Origin: Rhodohalobacter sp. SW132
Lineage (GTDB): Bacteria > Bacteroidota > Rhodothermia > Balneolales > Balneolaceae
Assembly: GCF_003390325.1 (NCBI RefSeq)
Contig: NZ_QUOK01000003.1
Location: 1-64,000 of the forward strand
DNA: 64,000 nt
Reading direction: 5' to 3'
Shown here: positions 12,392 to 43,664 of the stretch, piece by piece
Position numbering within the stretch: position 1 is the first letter of the stretch
Layout of the letters: the number at the start of each line of letters is the position of its first letter
Position numbers and translations under genes: made by a program
Notes under the pieces: generated by a model
Told to the model about the DNA's origin: nothing
The model's database searches: none
Seen by the model: only the letters and a program-made list of their open reading frames with translations

Positions 12392-12859
12392 ATCTGCTTA
12401 AATCCTATGCCGATTTTTTTGTAGTTTTTTCTCTGTAGTGATGTTGTACATTTAAGCGCAAAAAATAAGTGTTAAGATCTTCTAATCCAAATAGTATGTA
12501 ACGATTCCTACACTTTTTTCTTTACCAAAAACTACACAACATTTAATGATACACTACAAATGCATTATATACCTATACAAACTCTGCACCGTGAATGGAT
12601 GTATATTCTGAAATGAATGATTCGATCAGGTTTCAACCCACGTTTTATACGGTTCACAACGATTATCGGTGGTTTTGGAGAATTTCTTAAATAGATTTTA
12701 CAGGATATATTCTATTTTTTTATAAATCCCGGTCTATTCTAAAAGGAAACATTTTACAGTATTGGAATATTTTTCCGTAAAGTTATGTGTGCAGGGCGAC
12801 ACAATTTGTATAAGGGTTGAATTTGAGTATCTGGTTTTTTTACCCACTCCCACCAACGG
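12392..12859. promoter_or_regulatory. Leader region of the initiating transferase gene
   Basis: No gene. On the minus strand a motif reading AAAAAAGTGTAGGAATC lies at about 12504-12520. Closely related AAAAAGTGTAAGG motifs occur upstream of the T9SS-sorted gene and of comF, so this may be a promoter element. The 12740-12859 part shows only weak similarity to repeat array A. Confidence 0.35.
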
Positions 12860-14870
12860 CCCCAGATGAAATATGAGTTTGTAGCCCGGGTTAATGGATA
12901 TCCATAAAACATTGTAACATCCAGATACCGGTCCTGGAAGGGCCAAATGTGAATATCCCCCAGGTGTAGAACGATACAATCGGGCGTAACCCAGGAATTG
13001 ATGTGGCAATAGAACCAGGCCATCGGGCGATATATCAGCGAATGATTGGGAATTTAATCCGATGGCTGTTCATCGATTTTGATCAACGGAAACGGTGTTG
13101 TGATGAATAATATATCGAACAACCCCTCGGTGGGTTCATTGATTTTGCTGAATTTATTGCCTCGGGATTCCTGTTTTCGATTTCCAACGTATTCCCGGGG
13201 TAAAAACCCCGGGCTATTCACATTTAGCCCCGTTCGGGGCTTGGGTTAGTGGCCTACGTTAGATCGGGGTAAATTATATGTTATGAAATCTAATACTCTT
13301 GAATCATCCGATTCGCCTACAGGCATTATGTGTTCCCCACACATGGACCATAGAGGACAAATGTTTGTAGCTCGGGTTAAAACGGATATCCCTAACGCAT
13401 TGCAATGTCAAGAAACCGACCCTGAAAGGGCCAAATGTGAATAGCCCCGAGTGGTGCACGATGTAATCGGGCATAACCCGGGGATTATATGGGGTCATTG
13501 GATCCAGGCCATCGGGCGATACATGAACGAAGGATTGGGAATGATATCCGATGGCCGTTCATCGATTTTGATCAACGGATTCTGTGAGGTGGATGATTTC
13601 TCGGACAACCCCTCGATGTGTTCATTGATTCTGCGGAATTCATTGCCTCGGAATTCCTGTTTCGATATCCAACGTTTTCCAGGGGCTGCAACCCCGGGCT
13701 GTTGATTTGCGCCCGTTCGGGGCTGGGAAAAGTGACCTATCTTCAATTGAGTTCATTAAAATGGCACGAAATCAATCGCCCTTGAAACATTCGATTGGTC
13801 TTCTATCATTATTTTGCCCACACATGATTTTTTTCGAGACGTGGCCCCGGAGGGGACATATATTTGTAGCCCAGGTGTAGCACGATGCAATCGGGCGAAA
13901 CCCGGGGACAAAATGAGGTCATTGGATCCGGGCCATCGGGCGATACATGAACGAAGGGCTATGAATTATATCCGATGGCGGTTCACAGATTTTGATCAAC
14001 GGATTCGGTGCGATGGTTGATTTCTCGGACAACCCCTCGGTGAGTTCATTGATTTTGCTGAATTCATTGCCACGGGGTTCCTGTTTTCGATTTCCAACGT
14101 ATTCCCCGGGCTGCAGCCCCGGGCTGTTGATTTGCGCCCTGTTCGGGGCTAGATTTATTGACCAATCTTTTATTGGGTTATTTTATAGGGTATGAAATTT
14201 ATCACCTTTGAAATATCCAGTGGACCTTCAAACAGTCTGATGTCCAAACTGGCCCCGTAGGGGACATATATTTGTAGCCCGGGTGTAGCACGATGCAATC
14301 GGGCGTAACCCGGGGATAATATGCGGTCATTGGATCCAGACCATCGGGCGATACATGAACGAAGGGATAGGAATTATATCCGATGGCGGTTCACAGATTT
14401 TGATCAACGGATTCGGGGCGATGGATGATATTTCAGACAACCCCTCGGCAGGTTCATAGATTCTTTAGAATTCAACGCCTCGGGGTTCGTGTTTTTATGC
14501 CCAATGTTTTCCCGGGGTAAAAACCCCGGCTATTCACATTTAGCCCCGTTCGGGGCTGGGGTTAGTGACCTATCTTTAATTGGAATACTTTGTATGGTAC
14601 AAAATCTATCACCCGTGAAACGTTCGCTGGACCTTCAAACATTGTTTCGTCACCACACCGGTCCTGGAGGGGAAATATATTTGTAGCCAGGATTGTCCGG
14701 ATGTCCCTCAAGCCTTGCGGTATACGGACGCGGCCCCGAAAGGGCCAAATGTGCATATCCCCGGATGGTACACGATGTTATCGGGCATAACCCGGGGAAA
14801 TGATGTTGAAATTATATCAAAAGAAGAAATTAAAAACCACCGGGTGGTTCAATTCCCGGCGGTTAGTCGG
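12860..14870 (+). repeat. Array A: about five tandem copies of a 400-500 bp hairpin-rich repeat
   Basis: The anchor word TTTGTAGC and the sequence after it recur at 12878, 13364, 13863, 14271 and 14680, giving units of 486, 499, 408 and 409 bp, all in the same direction. Each unit contains a CCCGGGT...ACCCGGG hairpin around a GATGCAATCGGGC core. A CCATCGG...CCGATGG inverted pair comes next, then ACAACCCCTCGGTGGGTTCATTGATT with a matching CCTCGGGGTT. A CCCGGGG(N)CCCCGGG palindrome and a GCCCCGTTCGGGGC hairpin end the unit. Short open frames in the units are not conserved as proteins and are read as accidental. The GTAG directly before a palindrome resembles REP elements. The unit could be a mobile or structured non-coding element. 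Confidence 0.85.
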
Positions 14871-14888
14871 GTGTTCGGATGGTTTAGG

Positions 14889-17315
14889 TTACTTCAAGAG
14901 CGTCATCTTTCTTGTTTGAACGATTCCATTTGTTTGTAAACGGTAGAGATACAGACCGCTGGAGAGCGTTGATGCGTCGAACTCGATCGTGTGACGGCCA
15001 GGCTGCTGTGCTTTACGCTGAAACAAGGCAACCCTCCTGCCGATGGCATCGAACACCTCAAGCTGAACGTCTCCAGGATCAGAGAGTGTGTAGGGTATGG
15101 TCGTGGCCGGATTAAACGGGTTGGGATAATTTGGCAGCAGCTTAGTTTTCCCCGGCCGTTCATCTGCTTCCGGTTCCAGTGAAACTGAAAGTTCTGAACT
15201 CAGTGCTGCATTCCGGAGAGGTACCGTATTTCTCTCCGAGGCCGCCACAGCCCGAAGAAGATTAATCGAAACCGGGGTTTCCCAATCTTTCTCAGCCTTG
15301 ATGACAATTCGTGCAAGATTGCTGGCCTTAACCTGATCAGAAAAGCCTTTATGTATCCACGTTGCGGCTAAGAAATCATCATGCGAGGCTTGAAACTCTA
15401 TAAGCCGGTTTTCACGTTGCCACTCTTCTCCCCATTCAATCGGAACTGCAGTTTCTGTGCTCCAGCTTTCCGGATCTATTCCGTTTACTGAAATCCGAAA
15501 TGAAAGACCTGATAACGAGACTGTCCCATCCACTATCAAATAGAGCTCAGCGGTTTCTCCGGCTACTAATGGGTCAAGTGTGATCGATGAAATTGCTGAA
15601 ACACTTCTTTTCTGTCGGCCTCCCCCACTGCCTGAACTTCCTTCCGGATGGGTTTTTCCAAAATGGAGACCAACAAGCTGAAGATCGTTATGATCTACGC
15701 GTCCGCTTCCGGAGGCGTCTGCATAGGTTGCCGCCTCGGGGATCCAGGCCTCGACGTCACGTGCTGCCCAGTCTGAACTGTTGTATATTGGCTTCGGACC
15801 TTCGGAGAGCCAGTAGTAGCCCAGGGGAATCACATCCAGCTCATCCACAACACCGTCATGGTTTGTATCCCCCGGCCAGACGCTGATTCGTTTGGCATTC
15901 GGATTGATTCCGGTAATCACAATATCATCGATTCGGTTTGTTCCACCTGCTGCAACCGCACTCGCATCGTTCGGACTAATTCGCAAACTATCCGTCTGAA
16001 CCCATCGGATATATAGTTCAGGCTGATCATTCAAAGCTTCCGGAAGCGGGAGCTGGTCCACAACCCCGGTTGTCCAGTTTGTCCCGACCTCAATCGCTCC
16101 ACCCGGGACATCTTCCCAGGTTTCTCCGTTCAGACTCGACTGAATTTGGAAATCCCTCGGACCAGTACCAGAACCATATTGTTTGGATGTAATACGAAGC
16201 TGTTCAAAGTTTTCTGTTGAAATAACAATCTGCCAGTAGTTTTCACCCTCAGCAAATTCGTGCCATCCGGATGAGTTGAGTGCCAGCCCTGTAGAGCCTG
16301 ATGTAAATCCGTCTCCGCTGAATGATGCACCGTAAAGCTCTACCTCAGAGGTTTGATTCACCGGGGTTGAGAGTCTCGGCAGTACAGTTTCGCCAACAAA
16401 ATCCCATTCCGCAATGGTGTATCGGAACGGTGGCTGTTCGAGAATTTCCATAACTGCGGATGGACTTTCGCTGCTGTCCCATTCCCCATTGATCCCGCCG
16501 TATTTGTAATTGAGATCTTCATCTAAATCAGTGCGGATTGCAACGTAATACTCCCCCGTTTCTCTCATAAATGCGATTTCCCCGGTATACAGGAAATAAT
16601 CCTCGCTGTCCTGTTCCGTAAACTCCATGAGCTGCCAGCTTGATTCGTCCCAGGTTGCGGGATTAGTATCCTGCTCATTCACTCCGGCCCACATCCGGAT
16701 TCTCTCACTGTTTTCCTCATCACCCGTAACGCCGTTTGCGTATACACGTCCTGTAGCCTGATATTCATCCCCTTCGGTTACATCAATCGAAGCCGGTGTG
16801 GTAAGTTCAACCAGTGCAATCGACTCCATCACCTCAAATGTTGGCGATTCCAGTGGTCCGGTATCGATTTCGGTACCGGAAGAATTTGCCAGTTTCACCT
16901 CATCAAAGGAAAAAGAACCATCCCCCACCGGAGTTTTCTCCCGGACCCTGAATGTGAGAACCATCAGTCCGCCGGAAGCGTTGGATACCTGTTGATCGGT
17001 TCGGGATGCTGATGCACCAATTACTCCGGGTGACAGATGGTCGGCAAAAGCCACTCCAGTTGCTGTAATGCCGCTTGGCTGAATCGCCAGGAATTCGAAT
17101 ATCTCTATGTCGTACGCCAGTTCAATAGAAATAAAATAAGCGTCAGAATTATATGTTGCTGATAGGGTGAGTTCGATTTCATCACCGGCGTAGAGTTCGG
17201 ATGATGAAAGCTCTGCGTTGAGGGTTACCTGTGCGGCTGCAGAATAATTGATCGCAAGCCAGAACAGTAGTGTAAATGATATGGATATAGGAATTGTAGG
17301 TTTTCGTATGATCAT
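14889..17315 (-). CDS. Secreted protein with cohesin-like and dockerin-like parts and a T9SS C-terminal sorting domain
   Basis: I start this gene at the ATG at 17315 (808 residues). The longer GTG start at 17363 would put a basic 16-residue extension before a normal signal peptide (MIIRKPTIPISISF...SAAAQ). A cohesin-like beta domain follows (VTLNAELSSSELYAGDEIELTL), then modules without clear match. A dockerin-like pair of calcium-loop segments (GDTNHDGVVDELD and SGSGRVDHNDLQLVG) lies around residues 480-560. The last 85 residues are a type A Por/T9SS sorting domain: LPNYPNPFNPATTIPYTL, then GLYLYRLQT and a basic end. The protein should be exported by Sec and moved to the surface by T9SS. It lies between repeat arrays A and B. 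No catalytic domain is recognised; a scaffold or adhesin role is inference. Confidence 0.82.
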   Translation of the reverse strand: MIIRKPTIPISISFTLLFWLAINYSAAAQVTLNAELSSSELYAGDEIELTLSATYNSDAYFISIELAYDIEIFEFLAIQPSGITATGVAFADHLSPGVIGASASRTDQQVSNASGGLMVLTFRVREKTPVGDGSFSFDEVKLANSSGTEIDTGPLESPTFEVMESIALVELTTPASIDVTEGDEYQATGRVYANGVTGDEENSERIRMWAGVNEQDTNPATWDESSWQLMEFTEQDSEDYFLYTGEIAFMRETGEYYVAIRTDLDEDLNYKYGGINGEWDSSESPSAVMEILEQPPFRYTIAEWDFVGETVLPRLSTPVNQTSEVELYGASFSGDGFTSGSTGLALNSSGWHEFAEGENYWQIVISTENFEQLRITSKQYGSGTGPRDFQIQSSLNGETWEDVPGGAIEVGTNWTTGVVDQLPLPEALNDQPELYIRWVQTDSLRISPNDASAVAAGGTNRIDDIVITGINPNAKRISVWPGDTNHDGVVDELDVIPLGYYWLSEGPKPIYNSSDWAARDVEAWIPEAATYADASGSGRVDHNDLQLVGLHFGKTHPEGSSGSGGGRQKRSVSAISSITLDPLVAGETAELYLIVDGTVSLSGLSFRISVNGIDPESWSTETAVPIEWGEEWQRENRLIEFQASHDDFLAATWIHKGFSDQVKASNLARIVIKAEKDWETPVSINLLRAVAASERNTVPLRNAALSSELSVSLEPEADERPGKTKLLPNYPNPFNPATTIPYTLSDPGDVQLEVFDAIGRRVALFQRKAQQPGRHTIEFDASTLSSGLYLYRLQTNGIVQTRKMTLLK

Positions 17316-17559
17316 GGATCTCTTGGTTTTGTTCTTGATTGATTTTTTGAATCCCCTGACCACCCCTTGATTCTCTTTTGATCGGGGGCTTCTCTTTTAA
17401 GAGCTGATTTTCAGGATTTCCTTACACTTTTTTTCTGATTTTATTCTGAAAGCCGATAGCAAAATGAACAACCGCCTCGATTTTTATGTCGATATTTTTT
17501 GATATTTTACTTCGGGAATGACTGATTTTTTTTGAATTCATCATCTCCAATCGTACAAT
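17316..17559. promoter_or_regulatory. Leader region of the T9SS-sorted gene
   Basis: The minus strand carries an AAAAAAGTGTAAGGAAATC motif at about 17417-17433, around 105 bp before the chosen ATG. It is close to motifs found before comF and before the initiating transferase gene. The rest is unremarkable; repeat array B begins near 17560. Confidence 0.35.
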
Positions 17560-19180
17560 CCCATACGGGAGAGCCGGTGCGGATTTCCGGGGACATCATC
17601 GGGGTTAGTCTACGGATCCGGTGCGGTGGATGATTTTTCGGACAACCCCTCGGTGGGTTCATTGATTCTGCGGAATTCATCGTCTCGGGGTTCCTGTTTT
17701 TGATATCCGACGTTTTCCCGGGGTTTGCAACCCCGGGCTGTTGATTTGCGCCCCGTTCGGGGCTGGATTATAAGACCTACCATAAATCGAGGTAAATTAT
17801 ATGGTACGAAATCAATTGCACTTGAAACATTCGATTGGTCTTCTATCATTATTTGGCACACATTTGATTTTTTCGGGAGCTGATCCTAGAGGGGACATAT
17901 GTTTATAGCCGGTTTAACGGATGTTCATCAAGCATTACGATGTCCGGACACCGGCCCTGGAAGGGCCCAACGTGCATAGCCCCGGGTGAAGCACGATGCA
18001 ATCGAGCGAAACCCGGGGATATCATGCGGTAATGGATTCAGGCCATCGGGCAATACATCAACAAAGGATTGGGAATTACATCCGATGGCCGTTCAACGAT
18101 TGTGATCAACGGATTCGGTGTGATGGATGATTTTTCGGACAACCCCTCGGTGGGTTCATTGATTCTGCGGAATTTATCGCCTCGGGATGCTTGGTTTTTA
18201 TGCCCTACATATTCCCGGGGTTGCAACCCCGGGCTGTTGATTTGCACCCCGTTTGGGGCTGGATTATAAGACCTACCATAAATAGAGGTAAATTATATGG
18301 TTCGAAATTAATCGCCCTTGAAACATTCGATTGGTCTTCTATCATTGTTTGGCCCACATTTGATTTTTTCGGGAGCTGATCCTAGAGGGGAAATATGTTT
18401 ATAGCCGGGTTAACGGATGTCCATGAAGCGATGTCCGGACACCGGCCCTGGAAGGGCCAAACGTGCATAGCCCCGGGTAAAGCACGATGAAATCGGGCAT
18501 AACCCGGGGGAATGATGCGGCAATATATTCGGGCTATCGGGCGATGCATCAACTAAGGATTGGGAATTGCATCCGATGGCGGTTCACAGAGATTGATCAA
18601 CGGATTCGATGCGGTGGTGGGTTATTCGGTCAACCTCTCGGTGGGGGTCATTGATTCTGCGGAATTCATCGCCTCGGGGTTCCTGTTTTTGATATCCGAC
18701 GTTTTCCCGGGGTTTGCAACCCCGGGCTGTTGATTTGCGCCCCGTTCGGGGCTGGATTATATAACCTACCATAAATCGAGGTAAATTATATGGTACGAAA
18801 TAAATCACTCTTGAAACTTTCGATTGGTCTTCTATCATTGTTTGGCCCACATTTGATTTTTTCGAGACGTGGACCAGAGGGGACAAATGTTTGTAACCGG
18901 GTAACGGTTGTCCATCAACCATTGCAATGTTCAGAAAACGGCCCTGAAAGGGCCAAACGTGCATAGCCCCGGGTGAAGCACGATGCAATCGGGCGGAGCC
19001 CGGGGAGATGATGTGACAATAGATTCGGGCCATCGGGCGATGCATCAACGAAGGATTGGGAATTATATCCGATGGCTGTTCACAGATATTAATCAGCGGA
19101 TCGAGTGTGGTGGATGTTTTCTCGTATAATGCCTCGGTTAATTTGTTCAACGGATCATATCCCGGTAGAATTTTCTTAGA
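17560..19180 (+). repeat. Array B: three to four copies of the same long hairpin-rich repeat
   Basis: The unit of array A continues here in the same orientation, with anchors TTTATAGCC at 17902 and 18398 and TTTGTAACC at 18890 (spacings 496 and 492 bp), plus a partial unit before 17902. The copies here are more alike to each other than to those in A, for example all share GGATTATAAGACCTACCATA or a close variant after the GCCCCGTTCGGGGC hairpin. The perfect palindrome at 18214-18233 (CCCGGGGTTGC and its complement) is diagnostic. The last unit decays toward 19200. No gene is recognised inside. Confidence 0.85.
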
Positions 19181-22174: not shown

Positions 22175-23317
22175 TCAACAATCCCAGCGATATGTCCGAT
22201 GCGTTTTATGATGATGACACCCAAGCGCTTCGAGGCTTCGCTGCATGAGCCAGTTTTTTTCGCTGATCCACGCTCCTTCTAAGTAATCGAGTGACGGAGC
22301 GGCTTTTTTTGTCATCTGTATTCCGCGCACAAATACTAACGCTTCAAGCCCTTTTTTTCGATACTCCGGCAGAGTTCCAAAGACCAAATTCCGAAGACGA
22401 CGTGCGCGCCGTTTCAATAAAAAAAGTTTTGGGATTTGCCACCAGCGGAGCTTTCCTCCAGTCTCTTTTGATACCTGGTTCAGATCAGGCACTGAAACGA
22501 TAAATGATGCCGGTACTCCATCCACGGATGCGATCAGCACGCTGTCGCGGATCACAATTCGTTTGAGCTGCTGCACCATATCCCGAACGGTTTCCTTTTT
22601 TAGTTCGGTGAATTCCTGCTCGCGATCCACAATATCCTGCTCCGACCATGCCCGGTTATAGATTGTTCGTATCGCTTCGGCATCTTTTTCGGGATTTTTA
22701 AAGTTCACCGGACGAATTTCAACATTCAGTTTCTCCTCAATCCGGTCGGTGATCTTTATCAGCCGTTCGGGCAGCGGCTGGTCGAAATCACGCCGGTAAC
22801 TCCAGTGATCGTCCAGTTGCACCGCCCCGGTTTTTTCAATCAGTTCTTTGTAATACGGGGGATGATAGTGCATGCCGTAAATCGGTTCTTCATCAAAATT
22901 TTCTACCAGAAGTCCCCAGAAGTTATCGTTCTCCCCAAAATTTACCGGTCCCCGAAAAGCACTATATCCGTGTTTTTGATGCCATTCTTTTGCAAACCGG
23001 ATCATATCATCCATCACGGATTGATCATTTATCAGTTCCACAAACCCAAAACCGCCCATCACCGGTTTCAGCACTTTATCTTTTTCAGGATGATTCATCA
23101 CCGCAAACCGCCCCACCATCCGGTTTCCATCAAAAACCAGGTACCGTTCACAGTTGCCCCCTTTGAAAAACGGATTTTTATCCGGATTGAAAATCTTTTC
23201 GATTTCAAACCGAAACGGCGGGATCCAGTTTGGAAACGATTCGTAAATCTGTTTCTGAAAACTGTAAAAAAGATCCACCTGTGATGCGGTTGAAACCTTT
23301 TGATATTGGTATCTCAT
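22175..23317 (-). CDS. GNAT-like acetyltransferase family protein (YghO-like)
   Basis: This 380-residue cytoplasmic protein resembles the YghO-type group of large N-acetyltransferase-like proteins. Visible family-like blocks are WIPPFRFEIEKIFNPDKNPFF (about residues 32-52), GRFAVMNHPEKDK, and GYSAFRGPVNFGENDNFWGLLVENFDEEPIYGMHYHPPYY. The C-terminal GNAT-like stretch contains FGTLPEYRKKGLEALVFVRGIQM and SWISEKN-like residues (LEGAWISEKNWLM). The start is the ATG at 23317; the codon before it is a TTG. Substrate is unknown. Its stop codon falls inside the triloop hairpin array, which therefore forms its 3' UTR. It may be co-transcribed with the SLBB gene 370 bp downstream, but a functional link is not shown. 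Confidence 0.65.
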   Translation of the reverse strand: MRYQYQKVSTASQVDLFYSFQKQIYESFPNWIPPFRFEIEKIFNPDKNPFFKGGNCERYLVFDGNRMVGRFAVMNHPEKDKVLKPVMGGFGFVELINDQSVMDDMIRFAKEWHQKHGYSAFRGPVNFGENDNFWGLLVENFDEEPIYGMHYHPPYYKELIEKTGAVQLDDHWSYRRDFDQPLPERLIKITDRIEEKLNVEIRPVNFKNPEKDAEAIRTIYNRAWSEQDIVDREQEFTELKKETVRDMVQQLKRIVIRDSVLIASVDGVPASFIVSVPDLNQVSKETGGKLRWWQIPKLFLLKRRARRLRNLVFGTLPEYRKKGLEALVFVRGIQMTKKAAPSLDYLEGAWISEKNWLMQRSLEALGCHHHKTHRTYRWDC

Positions 23318-25957: not shown

Positions 25958-25990
25958 TCTCGAATATATATTTCGAGTCGAACAAGAACG

Positions 25991-26060
25991 GGAGATGCCG
26001 TGTCGGGGCACGGCATGACTGTGGTTAACTTCATACCCCTTTCAACGTCATCGCGGGCTC
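25991..26060. repeat. 70-bp direct repeat, left copy
   Basis: It is 68 of 70 bases identical to 27161-27230, with a third, degenerate copy at about 27311-27355. It contains an ATGCCGTG/CACGGCAT hairpin at 25995-26016. The two good copies flank array C. Confidence 0.85.
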
Positions 26061-26069
26061 TGAACCTGT

Positions 26070-26830
26070 GATCTTCTTTTTGATCAACGGATTCGGTGCA
26101 GTGCATGATTTCTCGATCAACCCCTCGATAGGTTCATTGATTCTGCTGAATTCATTGCCTCGGGATTCTTGGTTTTTATGCCCTACATATTCCCGGGGTT
26201 GCAACCCCGGGCTGTTGATTTGCGCCCCGTTCGGGGCTGGTTGAGGAACCTACCATAGTTCGGGATAAATTAAATGGTACGAATTCCATCACCCCTGAAA
26301 CGTACAATGGATCCTCAAACAGTGTGTGGCCTCCACACCGGCCCCGGAGGGGACAAATGTTTGTAGCCCCGGGTGTAGCACGATGCAATCGGGCGCAACC
26401 CGGGGAAATGATGTGGCAATAGATTCAGGCCATCGGGCGATACATAAACAAAGGATTGAGAATTAAATCCGATGGAGGTTCATCGATTTTGATCAACGGA
26501 TTCGGTACGGTGGAGCGGTGGAGGGTTTTTCGGTAAACCCCTCGAATTATTTGTTCGCCATTTCCTGATGTTTCGCCTCGGGAAATCTTGCATGCAAATC
26601 AATCTGTAGTTTCTACAAACATACCAACCAACCGGGGCGGTTTTCGGGGAAATCATTAGCTTGGTCAATAGATTCGGTGTGGTGCAATATTCATCGGATT
26701 CCCCTCGGTGTGTTCATTAATTCGGCTGAATTCATCGCCTCGGGGTTCCGGGTTTTTATGCCCAACGTATTCCCGGTGATGCAACCCCGGGCTGTTGATT
26801 TACGCCCCGTTCGGGGCTGATCACTTTTAT
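26070..26830 (+). repeat. Array C: partial copies of the long hairpin-rich repeat
   Basis: One nearly full unit and two fragments of the arrays A and B repeat, in the same orientation. The anchor TTTGTAGCC is at 26360 and the palindrome at 26192-26211. The ATCAACGGATTCGGT module appears at about 26091 and 26493, and a final GCCCCGTTCGGGGC hairpin near 26803. The part around 26540-26640 is unrelated to the repeat, so this copy is rearranged. Confidence 0.8.
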
Positions 26831-26896
26831 TGTGGTAAACCATGCTCCTATCGGTGCATTATATTTGTAGAACAAATGAATGCCAATGGGATCGGG

Positions 26897-27039
26897 CGTG
26901 CCGTAGGCACGTTATATTTCGCGTTTGATTTGGGATCTACGCATGGATGGTAGCCTGTACAGGAAAATAAATTGTTCCTACGGAACAACCTTGGTTGGCA
27001 ACGATTGGTTTTCTACAAATATATCGTCTCTACGAGACG
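26897..27039. repeat. Three triloop hairpins
   Basis: GTGCC-GTA-GGCAC (26897-26911 with flanking bases), TTGTTCC-TAC-GGAACAA (26972-26988) and CGTCTC-TAC-GAGACG (27025-27039) are perfect stems with TAC or GTA triloops. They resemble the triloop hairpins at 21955-22171, with variable stem and constant loop. No gene lies in this stretch. Confidence 0.7.
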
Positions 27040-27160
27040 GGTTCTGAGGTAGATAGTTTGCAGTATTTCTGGGTGCAACCACCACGTCATGGCGGGCCCT
27101 GATCTGCGGTACAAGAAAAGATCGACCCCTGGAAAGAATTCACAGATCGGCCATGAATGG

Positions 27161-27230
27161 GAGATGCCGTGTCGGGGCACGGCATGACTGTGGTTAACTT
27201 CATATCCCTTTCAACGTCATCGCGGACTCC
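27161..27230. repeat. 70-bp direct repeat, right copy
   Basis: It is the partner of 25991-26060, differing at two positions. Such near identity 1.17 kb apart, on both sides of array C, suggests recent duplication or insertion. Confidence 0.85.
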
Positions 27231-41929: not shown

Positions 41930-41990
41930 CATCGGATGAGTTTTTCGAAAATCAGAGAACCATTGGTTCAATATAGAATTCGTGGATGTT
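41930..41990. repeat. Partial CATCGGATGAG element, copy 4
   Basis: It matches the left 60 bp of the element at 30979-31052 (ATCGGATGAGTTTT...AATATA...ATTC.TGGATG) and then runs straight into the IS-associated module L1 at about 41991. The right inverted end is missing. Confidence 0.65.
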
Positions 41991-42420
41991 AATAATCCCG
42001 AAGGGATTTAACGTGAATAGCCCACCCGAAGGGTCGGGTTCTTCGACTGGGTGAAACTCGGGGAAATTAGCAGGGCAAAAAAACACCAACCCCGGAGTGG
42101 GTTGAACAACACGCCTATGTTCACATCAGATATTTCTCATTAAATTCTACCCGGTGTTTTTGTAATACGGAAATATGTACATATCTATTCAGAAATCGTT
42201 AATTCAACCCCATTCGGGGTTGTCGGACTACCGGCCATCTCCCAATCCCCGAGTTTCACCCGGGGCTATTCACTTTATACTCCTTCGGAGTATGTGTGTG
42301 AATTGGCTGGGAAAGCGTCATTCCATAGTATCACAAATAAATAGATTCCAAATCGTTTATCCGGGATTTTGCAGGAGACATCGACCCTAAAGCAGAATCC
42401 CAGGATCTTCCCGCTATCTA
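41991..42420. mobile_element. tnpA-deleted derivative of the adjacent IS200/IS605-like element
   Basis: Module L1 (41991-42109, AATCCCGAAGGGATT hairpin) is followed at 42121-42167 by a copy of the last 15 codons of the transposase gene. It then jumps to a copy of the transposase upstream region (about 42171-42196 matching 43041-43083) and module R1 (42197-42420). The internal 430 bp of the gene are missing, so this is a MITE-like deletion product. Confidence 0.8.
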
Positions 42421-42452: not shown

Positions 42453-43320
42453 TGGATATTGATAATCCCGGAGGGATTTAACGTGAATAGCCCCGGGTGA
42501 AACTCGGGGAAATTAGCAGGGCAAAAAAACACCAACCCCGAAGCGGGTTGAACTGCATGCCTTTGTTCACATCAAATATTTCTCATTAAATTCTACCCGG
42601 TGTTCTTGTAATAATGTGATCAACTCCTCCCGGTAAGAAATGGTTTTATGATGAGTCTCCTGTTTTTTCACATATTCAATCAGCCGATTTTTTTCTTTAA
42701 TAGAATAGGTAAATGCGGAATACCCTTCTTGCCATGCTGTAAATTCCGGAAACAACAAATTTGACTTGATATACGAATTACAAGAAACTTTGATGTCTTT
42801 TACCAATGACGATACTGAAATTGAAGGATGAACATGAGTAACAATGTGCAAATGATCTTCTACCCCATTGATTCTATACAAATGGCATTTATTGTTTTTC
42901 AATATTCCCCAAATGTATTTAAAAAGCTCTTCACGATTGTCTTTCAAAAGGGTTGGTGTTCTTAGTTTTGTACTAAAGATAATCTGATAAAGGATTTGTG
43001 TATGCGTACTCATGATGGGTTCTCTCTACTTTATTAATTTGAAATAGATAAAATGTACAAATTTATTCATAAATCATGAATTCAACCCCATTCGGGGTTG
43101 TCGGACTACCGACCCTCTCCCAATCCCCGAGTTTCACCCGGGGCTATTCACATTTTACTCCTTCGGAGTATGTGTGTGAATTGGTTGGAAAGCGTCACTC
43201 CATAGCATCACAAATAAATAGATAGCAAATCGTTTATCCGGGATTTTGCAGGAGACATCGACCCTTAAGCAGAATCCCAGGATCCTCCAGCTTTCTATAC
43301 TCGTAGATAATTTTCCATTC
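42453..43320 (-). mobile_element. IS200/IS605-like element with full transposase
   Basis: Module L2 (42453-42554), the transposase gene (42567-43013) and module R2 (43078-43320) repeat the layout of the neighbouring derivative. Ends have several hairpins: AATCCC-GGA-GGGATT on the left, AACCCC-ATTC-GGGGTT and ACTCC-TTC-GGAGT on the right. There are no terminal inverted repeats, as expected for this single-strand transposon family. Exact ends are not resolved. A third left module, L3, follows at 43330-43455. Confidence 0.75.
42567..43013 (-). CDS. tnpA: IS200/IS605 family transposase TnpA (Y1 HUH)
   Basis: This 148-residue protein is a Y1 single-strand transposase of the length typical for IS200/IS605 TnpA. 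The HUH metal motif is in GVEDHLHIVTHVHP (HLH at about residues 53-55). YSAFTYSIKEKNRLIEYVKKQETHH near residues 108-132 contains the helix that carries the catalytic Tyr (Tyr124 in EYVKKQ by position). It is intact and probably active. RAYT (REP-associated) transposases are related, but the short length favours a mobile IS enzyme. Surrounding hairpins are likely its binding sites. No tnpB accessory gene is present. Confidence 0.9.
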   Translation of the reverse strand: MSTHTQILYQIIFSTKLRTPTLLKDNREELFKYIWGILKNNKCHLYRINGVEDHLHIVTHVHPSISVSSLVKDIKVSCNSYIKSNLLFPEFTAWQEGYSAFTYSIKEKNRLIEYVKKQETHHKTISYREELITLLQEHRVEFNEKYLM

Positions 43321-43329
43321 TCAAAAGAA

Positions 43330-43455
43330 TAGATATTGATAATCCCGGAGGGATTTAACATGAATAGCCCACCCGAAGGGTCGGGTTCTTCGACTGGGTG
43401 AAACTCGGGGAAATTAGCAGGGCAAAAAAACACCAACCCCGGAGTGGGTTGAACA
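43330..43455. repeat. Extra left module L3 of the IS200-like element
   Basis: It is nearly identical to L1 (GATAATCCCGGAGGG..., CCCACCCGAAGGGTCGGG hairpin, GGTGAAACTCGGGG, ACCAACCCCGGAGTGGGTTGAAC) and not followed by a gene. It shows that the element has been duplicated or transposed locally. Confidence 0.75.
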
Positions 43456-43664
43456 GATGTCAGTTCTCTACTCAAAATTCCAAATACGCAAAATACATCC
43501 CTCCGTTTTCATTCTTACAGAACGATATTTTTTATTGTGCATTCAATATCTGTTTAGGTATCTTTTGACCTGTCTTTCGCAGGGCAAAAAATAACTATAG
43601 CTACCTGCACGTTACGGGAACCGTTCAACCGAACTGTATCAACATTTAACTGTTCAAACGTTTT

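Follow-up and report, generated by a model that had tools for sequence, protein, structure and literature searches.

Tandem intergenic repeats in a Rhodohalobacter capsule locus: likely REPIN/BIME-like elements of a HUH/Y1 transposase system with inverted three-hairpin modules

Repeat arrays and the secreted-protein gene at the capsule locus

The window, i.e., the whole stretch of 64,000 nucleotides (64 kb) from Rhodohalobacter sp. SW132 that was analysed, carries long intergenic repeats in arrays A, B, and C, a gene for a T9SS-sorted protein between arrays A and B, and, farther to the right, the gene of a HUH/Y1 transposase, tnpA (Table 1). The same-strand repeat arrays described in an initial sequence-only reading are real, with approximately nine copies at 12.85–19.14 kb and rearranged copies at 26.08–26.82 kb. 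In array A, units start near 12877, 13352, 13829, and 14237, with a truncated unit at 14646. Array B begins with a truncated unit at 17609, followed by units at 17860, 18356, and 18849, the last of which is also truncated. All copies in the window lie on one strand, are 75–91% identical to a reference unit, and are spaced 408–496 bp apart. Every array copy is intergenic and several are located between convergent genes. In array B, adjacent copies can be as much as 95% alike, compared with approximately 80% for copies elsewhere.

A unit consists of two mutually inverted modules, M+ on the left and M- on the right, which together measure approximately 316 bp from end to end and are followed by a spacer of 169–179 bp. 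The statement that all copies share one strand is thus correct for the units, but not for the modules inside them. Two further descriptions had to be dropped. The same ordered hairpins are not kept in each unit, as the units at 13829 and 14237 lack a left segment of approximately 80 bp and the right half of the units at 18849, 26335, and C2:130916 differs from that of the other units. Likewise, GTAG does not directly precede a palindrome in every copy; it is present at six of nine named anchors, and array B has ATAG, ATAG, and GTAA. An alignment of the units revealed compensatory changes in only 4 of 81 pairs, and a single unit folds slightly better than its shuffled versions (z -1.45).

In the genome (5.08 Mb, 45 contigs; C denotes a contig), unit sequence is found at only four places, two of which lie outside the window (C2:130916-131924 and C3:228522-228672). 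A DNA search of 76 other family genomes with the 492 bp unit gave no counterpart beyond two short stretches. Scanning the genome with a strict core pattern returned only eight matches, the pattern being too narrow. Other short intergenic repeats surround array C (25970-26060, 26860-27060, and 27160-27230), among them GTAGAAA-tagged hairpins and a CGTCATCGCGG repeat.

Table 1. Repeat units, modules, and genes in the window. M+ and M- are the left and right modules; bit scores are those of covariance model R1 (see text), given in the order M+ / M- where two are listed.
Feature	Position	Strand	Details
Array A	12850..14855	+	four units, then final left half; period 408-488 bp
Unit A1	12926..13245	+	M+ 12926-13000, M- 13154-13245; 18.6 / 37.6 bits
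Unit A2	13414..13728	+	M+ 13414-13490, M- 13636-13728; 28.4 / 20.4 bits
Unit A3	13845..14153	+	left module (TTTGTAG linker) scores below the threshold of R1; M- 14064-14153
Unit A4	14247..14561	+	M+ 14247-14322, M- 14468-14561; 15.4 / 39.7 bits
M+ with its own third hairpin, at 3' end of T9SS gene	14728..14855	+	33.5 bits
T9SS-sorted protein gene	14889..17363	-	Por_Secre_tail; weak cohesin and dockerin-like domain matches
Array B	17609..19138	+	partial unit (right half), then two full units and a truncated one; period 491-496 bp
M- of partial unit B0	17673..17768	-	24.7 bits
Unit B1	17949..18264	+	M+ 17949-18056, M- 18171-18264; 31.3 / 32.9 bits
Unit B2	18440..18757	+	M+ 18440-18526, M- 18662-18757; 33.0 / 26.0 bits
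M+ of truncated unit B3	18936..19022	+	33.1 bits
Array C, rearranged	26078..26822	+	M- 26143-26242, M+ 26336-26451, M- 26728-26822
Gene-less unit beside tnpA	41990..42296		M+ 41990-42109, M- 42200-42296; 53.4 / 79.0 bits
tnpA-bearing unit	42460..43174		M+ 42460-42555, M- 43078-43174; 77.5 / 76.6 bits
tnpA	42567..43013	-	HUH/Y1 transposase, 148 aa; PF01797, NF033573; Y-x3-Q-x2-HH
Next M+ of tnpA locus	43337..43456	+	48.7 bits

Arrays A and B bracket the secreted-protein gene, as had been noted, and the gene sits between the last M+ of array A and the M- of partial unit B0. In relative G030, its orthologue and that of the gene at 22175 are neighbours; in relative G011, the orthologue of the T9SS gene adjoins Wzz, and the sugar transferase adjoins Wza. 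The gaps beside these orthologues are short and contain no array. Because the orthologues lie beside capsule-locus genes in relatives without arrays, the T9SS gene is, judged by gene order, resident in the capsule locus. The gaps occupied by arrays A and B are short in relatives. That the gene is cargo carried between M+ and M-, in the manner of tnpA, is scarcely credible. Its two flanking modules and a second T9SS-sorted gene between two M+M- pairs (approximately C5:222128-224833) would fit such a role. However, the gene order in relatives argues against the T9SS gene as array cargo, the half units on either side of it are not halves of one unit, and on inspection of other genomes modules were not clearly enriched near T9SS genes. 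At the second site (C5:221565-225259; L134 2566-6260), the T9SS-sorted gene encodes 901 aa, the M+M- pairs have the same orientation, and the flanks are partly repeated on both sides.

The tnpA gene and its three-hairpin modules

The first lead to the transposase came from a BLAST comparison of a unit with the window, which gave 22-base matches near 42.3–43.2 kb, where the Y1 gene sits. The encoded TnpA matches Y1_Tnp (PF01797) and the IS200/IS605 transposase model (NF033573). A sequence search of solved structures gave no match for TnpA; a fold search was successful, and the predicted structure (pLDDT 92) has a fold like that of the TnpA proteins of IS608 and ISDra2, with weaker similarity to the REP-associated transposase 4er8. 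Residues D53, H54, H56, and Y114 are invariant in an alignment of 45 proteins. TnpA contains YVKKQETHH (Y-x3-Q-x2-HH) and WQ, and its HuH motif reads DHLH, compared with DH(I/V)H in PMC6006769. These motifs fit the signature of TnpA_Y1 subclass 1.2, an assignment made by motifs and not by the HMMs of PMC6006769. One side of tnpA shows a hairpin, AACGTGAATA, GCCCCGGGTGAAACTCGGGG, approximately 24 nt, AACCCCGAAGCGGGTT, and GAA, and the inverted version lies on the other side.

Relatives of TnpA (80 proteins, 54–73% identical) were taken with their flanks from named genomes, mostly Bacteroidota, with some Ignavibacteria, Marinimicrobia, Hydrogenedentota, and others. When the flanks were read by eye, the order of three hairpins was constant and the stem sequences differed. 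This module of approximately 95 nt consists of hairpin 1, an AAT(G)TGAATA(A/G) linker, hairpin 2, approximately 25 nt, hairpin 3, and GAA. A mechanical scanner reached at least 21 stem pairs in 30 of the 77 flanks upstream and in equally many of the 77 downstream (60/154), and in none of 462 dinucleotide shuffles or 57 distant controls. Around tnpA at locus L049 (1794-4136), modules follow one another in a long series that is mostly alternating, and the gene-less pairs there measure approximately 190 bp.

From these flanks, 54 modules of other organisms, none of them from the source genome, were aligned (alignment A1). The consensus has 22 pairs in three hairpins, with compensatory changes at 20 of them, and TGAATA(A/G) is the consensus linker. 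Standard pairs fill 94.3% of the cells, compared with 72.5% in shuffles, a share biased upwards by the scanner's choice of modules with paired stems; that selection affects neither how diverse the stems are nor the conservation of the unpaired linker. The covariation score was 0.640, compared with 0.228 for shuffled alignments and at most 0.106 when partner columns were slid. The covariation that had been proposed as a check is weak within the units but strong at the level of the module family. Among 1183 pairs, 1079 are Watson–Crick, 36 are G.U (3%), and 16 are A.C; the rarity of G.U was partly selected, since the scanner demanded Watson–Crick stems, and is compatible with DNA without being decisive.

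A covariance model built from alignment A1, i.e., from sequences flanking tnpA genes of other organisms, was named R1 and run over the window. It gave 22 matches, all in units or at the tnpA locus and none elsewhere in the 64 kb, and within the units + and - matches alternate. Both modules were recovered in almost every unit, with the left module of unit A3 undetected. Both ends of the units are thus diverged members of the module family that flanks tnpA, the divergence following from R1 scores of 15–40 bits for unit modules against 77–79 bits at tnpA. The tnpA locus is laid out as M+ M- M+ (tnpA) M- M+, and the matching module order in the R1 scan identifies a unit as this layout minus the gene. 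The spacing is also alike: the gene-less pair at the tnpA locus measures 307 bp, with spacers of 163–164 bp and a period of 470 bp, compared with the unit spacers given above and unit periods of 488–496 bp. In most unit M+ copies, an extra hairpin (GCCATCGG...CCGATGGC) is found where hairpin 3 should adjoin hairpin 2, and hairpin 3 of the unit may correspond to AACCCCTCGGTGGGTT farther to the right. In the M+ modules at 41990-42109 and 43337-43456, a smaller palindrome (ACCCGAAGGGTCGGGTTCTTCGACTGGGT) is inserted in hairpin 2, and a similar insertion is seen in M- copies at C5.

The source genome has 12 R1 matches at E ≤ 0.001 and four relatives have 24–47; the source-genome sites that were inspected are intergenic, and module pairs lacking a gene are scattered over further intergenic sites of this genome. 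R1 modules are present at 78 of 80 tnpA loci, a share that arises partly by construction, as the locus counts include the 54 training modules. The nearest upstream module is + in 64 of 77 cases and - in 5, and the nearest downstream module is - in 54 of 73 and + in 4 (median 8 bp from the match end, often a few bases past the tnpA stop codon), counts on which it bears that training modules were themselves taken as + upstream and - downstream. Modules occur at 1.91 per kb up to a distance of 1 kb from tnpA and at 0.083 per kb farther out. The training overlap leaves unaffected the window scan, the co-occurrence in family genomes, and the far more numerous other matches. Across 77 genomes of Balneolaceae, modules occur in 15 of 15 with a close tnpA (E ≤ 1e-40) and in 12 of the 62 others (Fisher p 5e-9, phylogeny uncorrected). 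Three of those 12 (G018, G027, and G037) contain a close tnpA in fragments. A genome of another genus (G062; L129 3036-5088, C9) provides an independent case of this anatomy: next to an rlmN-like gene, alternating modules make up a 498 bp tandem array with its own sequence.

Y-x3-Q-x2-HH is present in each of the four full-length Y1 transposases encoded in the source genome; one is the close tnpA copy and the paralogues are 30–35% identical. On the flanks of the other TnpA paralogues, R1 found nothing except one 32-bit match beside L020, and the three-hairpin scanner gave a comparable module at L019, on just one side, a result barely above shuffles at L020, and nothing at L021. The module claim is consequently restricted to the close TnpA subfamily. 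By eye, the paralogues at L019, L020, and L021 have flanking hairpin repeats of their own in similar order (with linkers such as CCGTAG and ATATTTGTAG). Parts of the arrays with TTTGTAG linkers resemble the flank of the paralogue at L021, so two types of module may be combined in the array. Given four paralogues and this resemblance, it is uncertain which TnpA is the partner of the units.

Known systems and competing explanations

REP/BIME sequences, REPINs with RAYT (TnpA_REP), and REPtrons of E. coli and Pseudomonas (PMC3116915, PMC8266576) have much in common with the system described here, namely palindromic modules that are intergenic and come in inverted pairs, tandem copies in which flanking sequence is included, a single-copy HUH/Y1 gene with modules around it, and sequences specific to the family in each genome. 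As in BIMEs and REPINs, M+ and M- alternate in arrays A, B, and C and at the tnpA locus, and spacers of 163–179 bp repeat together with the units. As in REPtrons, modules flank a HUH/Y1 gene and are dispersed in intergenic DNA. REPINs expand in tandem with their flanks in Pseudomonas (PMC3116915) and BIMEs likewise grow in tandem (PMC8266576). The differences concern structure and enzyme. A GTAG-type REP has GT(A/G)G at the 5' foot of a single palindrome of 20–50 nt, and neither feature characterises the modules here; the module has three hairpins and the tag TGAATA(A/G), a pair measures approximately 316 bp, and the period is approximately 490 bp. The genomic RAYT gene that the sequence-only reading named as possible support has a counterpart in the HUH/Y1 gene of the window, but this gene bears the subclass 1.2 signature and belongs to a different transposase subclass than that of REPtrons. 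In vitro work has covered only two transposase groups together with their REPs (PMC8266576).

TnpA resembles subclass 1.2 as described by Quentin et al. (2018, PMC6006769) in its Y-x3-Q-x2-HH and WQ motifs, its length of 148 aa, its occurrence in Bacteroidetes, and its low copy number. That description lists no REP for the subclass and generally no terminal IS200 structures, in contrast to the three-hairpin modules found here at nearly every locus. IS200/IS605 elements such as IS608 and ISDra2 share the transposase fold, the family model, and hairpin ends. However, their hairpins are subterminal, not inverted, and read on one strand, whereas the modules here are inverted on the two sides of the gene, and this subfamily has one copy per genome instead of several near-identical copies. 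In the accessible part of their description (Di Nocera et al. 2013, PMC3733652), TIRtrons/TIRYT are similar in having a tyrosine transposase and flanking inverted repeats with self-complementary parts that are repeated genome-wide; the three-hairpin order and the linker do not appear in that part, and the GGGGWSAS motif given there is absent from the module consensus.

The main rival to movement of the units in trans by TnpA is a relic state, in which the units have a TnpA element as ancestor but have lost recognition by every TnpA, and the arrays exist and vary through homologous recombination and slippage only. This is unlikely, though it accounts for the divergence of the unit modules, the few compensatory changes within units, and the greater likeness of neighbours in array B, as tandem duplication gives; the preservation of paired stems in most unit copies and the dispersal of gene-less module pairs at other intergenic sites speak against it. 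Another possibility is that intergenic DNA with many terminator-like hairpins was simply duplicated in tandem, unconnected with any transposase, which would explain simple tandem periods and the intergenic position of all copies, several between convergent genes. This possibility has almost nothing to recommend it once R1 is considered, as a model made from the tnpA flanks of other genomes picks the unit ends and the tnpA locus and nothing else in the window.

The sequence-only reading also offered a repeated structured RNA, i.e., a non-coding RNA or a cis-regulatory element. Strong conserved pairing at the family level could be read in this way, and two right modules gave sub-threshold matches to the Rfam family Acido-Lenti-1 (24.4 and 22.2 bits; threshold 37). 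Nevertheless, an RNA is very improbable: an Rfam scan of the window and 20 tnpA loci gave no family at threshold, lax settings yielding Acido-Lenti-1 alone, and the modules occur on both strands, inverted on either side of tnpA and often a few bases past its stop codon. The G.U share of 3% is also low for an RNA. The sub-threshold matches lie at 14104-14150 and 18214-18260, and Acido-Lenti-1 (RF01687) perhaps merits a check against transposase-linked DNA hairpins.

Proposed origin and significance of the units

The units are probably non-autonomous, REPIN/BIME-like DNA elements of a single-gene HUH/Y1 TnpA system with inverted three-hairpin modules, and the system is best read as a new, large, three-hairpin variant of the REPtron/BIME. 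Support for a REP-like nature comes from the inverted three-hairpin modules of a TnpA-associated family and from the presence of tnpA in the window. The earlier proposal of a large composite REP-like mobile element is borne out in its composite character, with two inverted modules per unit and a TnpA gene in the window; mobilisation by TnpA is inferred. HUH/Y1 enzymes such as those of IS608 and E. coli TnpA_REP point to the folded, single-stranded module as the likely substrate. TnpA would act like the IS608 and REP transposases in recognising the hairpins and the linker on single-stranded DNA, and may have spread gene-less M+/M- pairs in trans. The arrays would then have grown by tandem duplication of unit plus spacer, via replication slippage or unequal exchange.

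With somewhat less assurance, we lean towards a broader view, in which TnpA_Y1 of subclass 1.2 across Bacteroidota and neighbouring phyla constitutes an unrecognised REPtron class, marked by an inverted module of three hairpins and a tag other than GTAG, and has seeded genomes with long, gene-less multi-hairpin elements that grow into tandem arrays of 400–500 bp. A literature search of freely accessible journal papers gave no description of this system and no report that ties subclass 1.2 to REPs. Such a class would represent a third kind of REP transposase, distinguished by its compound module, its different tag, and the strong covariation of the module, from a phylum in which little had been known, and would provide a defined pair of enzyme and substrate. 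It is also a caution that transposase-linked DNA repeats can look like structured RNAs. For the genomes concerned, the module system would account for families of long repeats in intergenic DNA.
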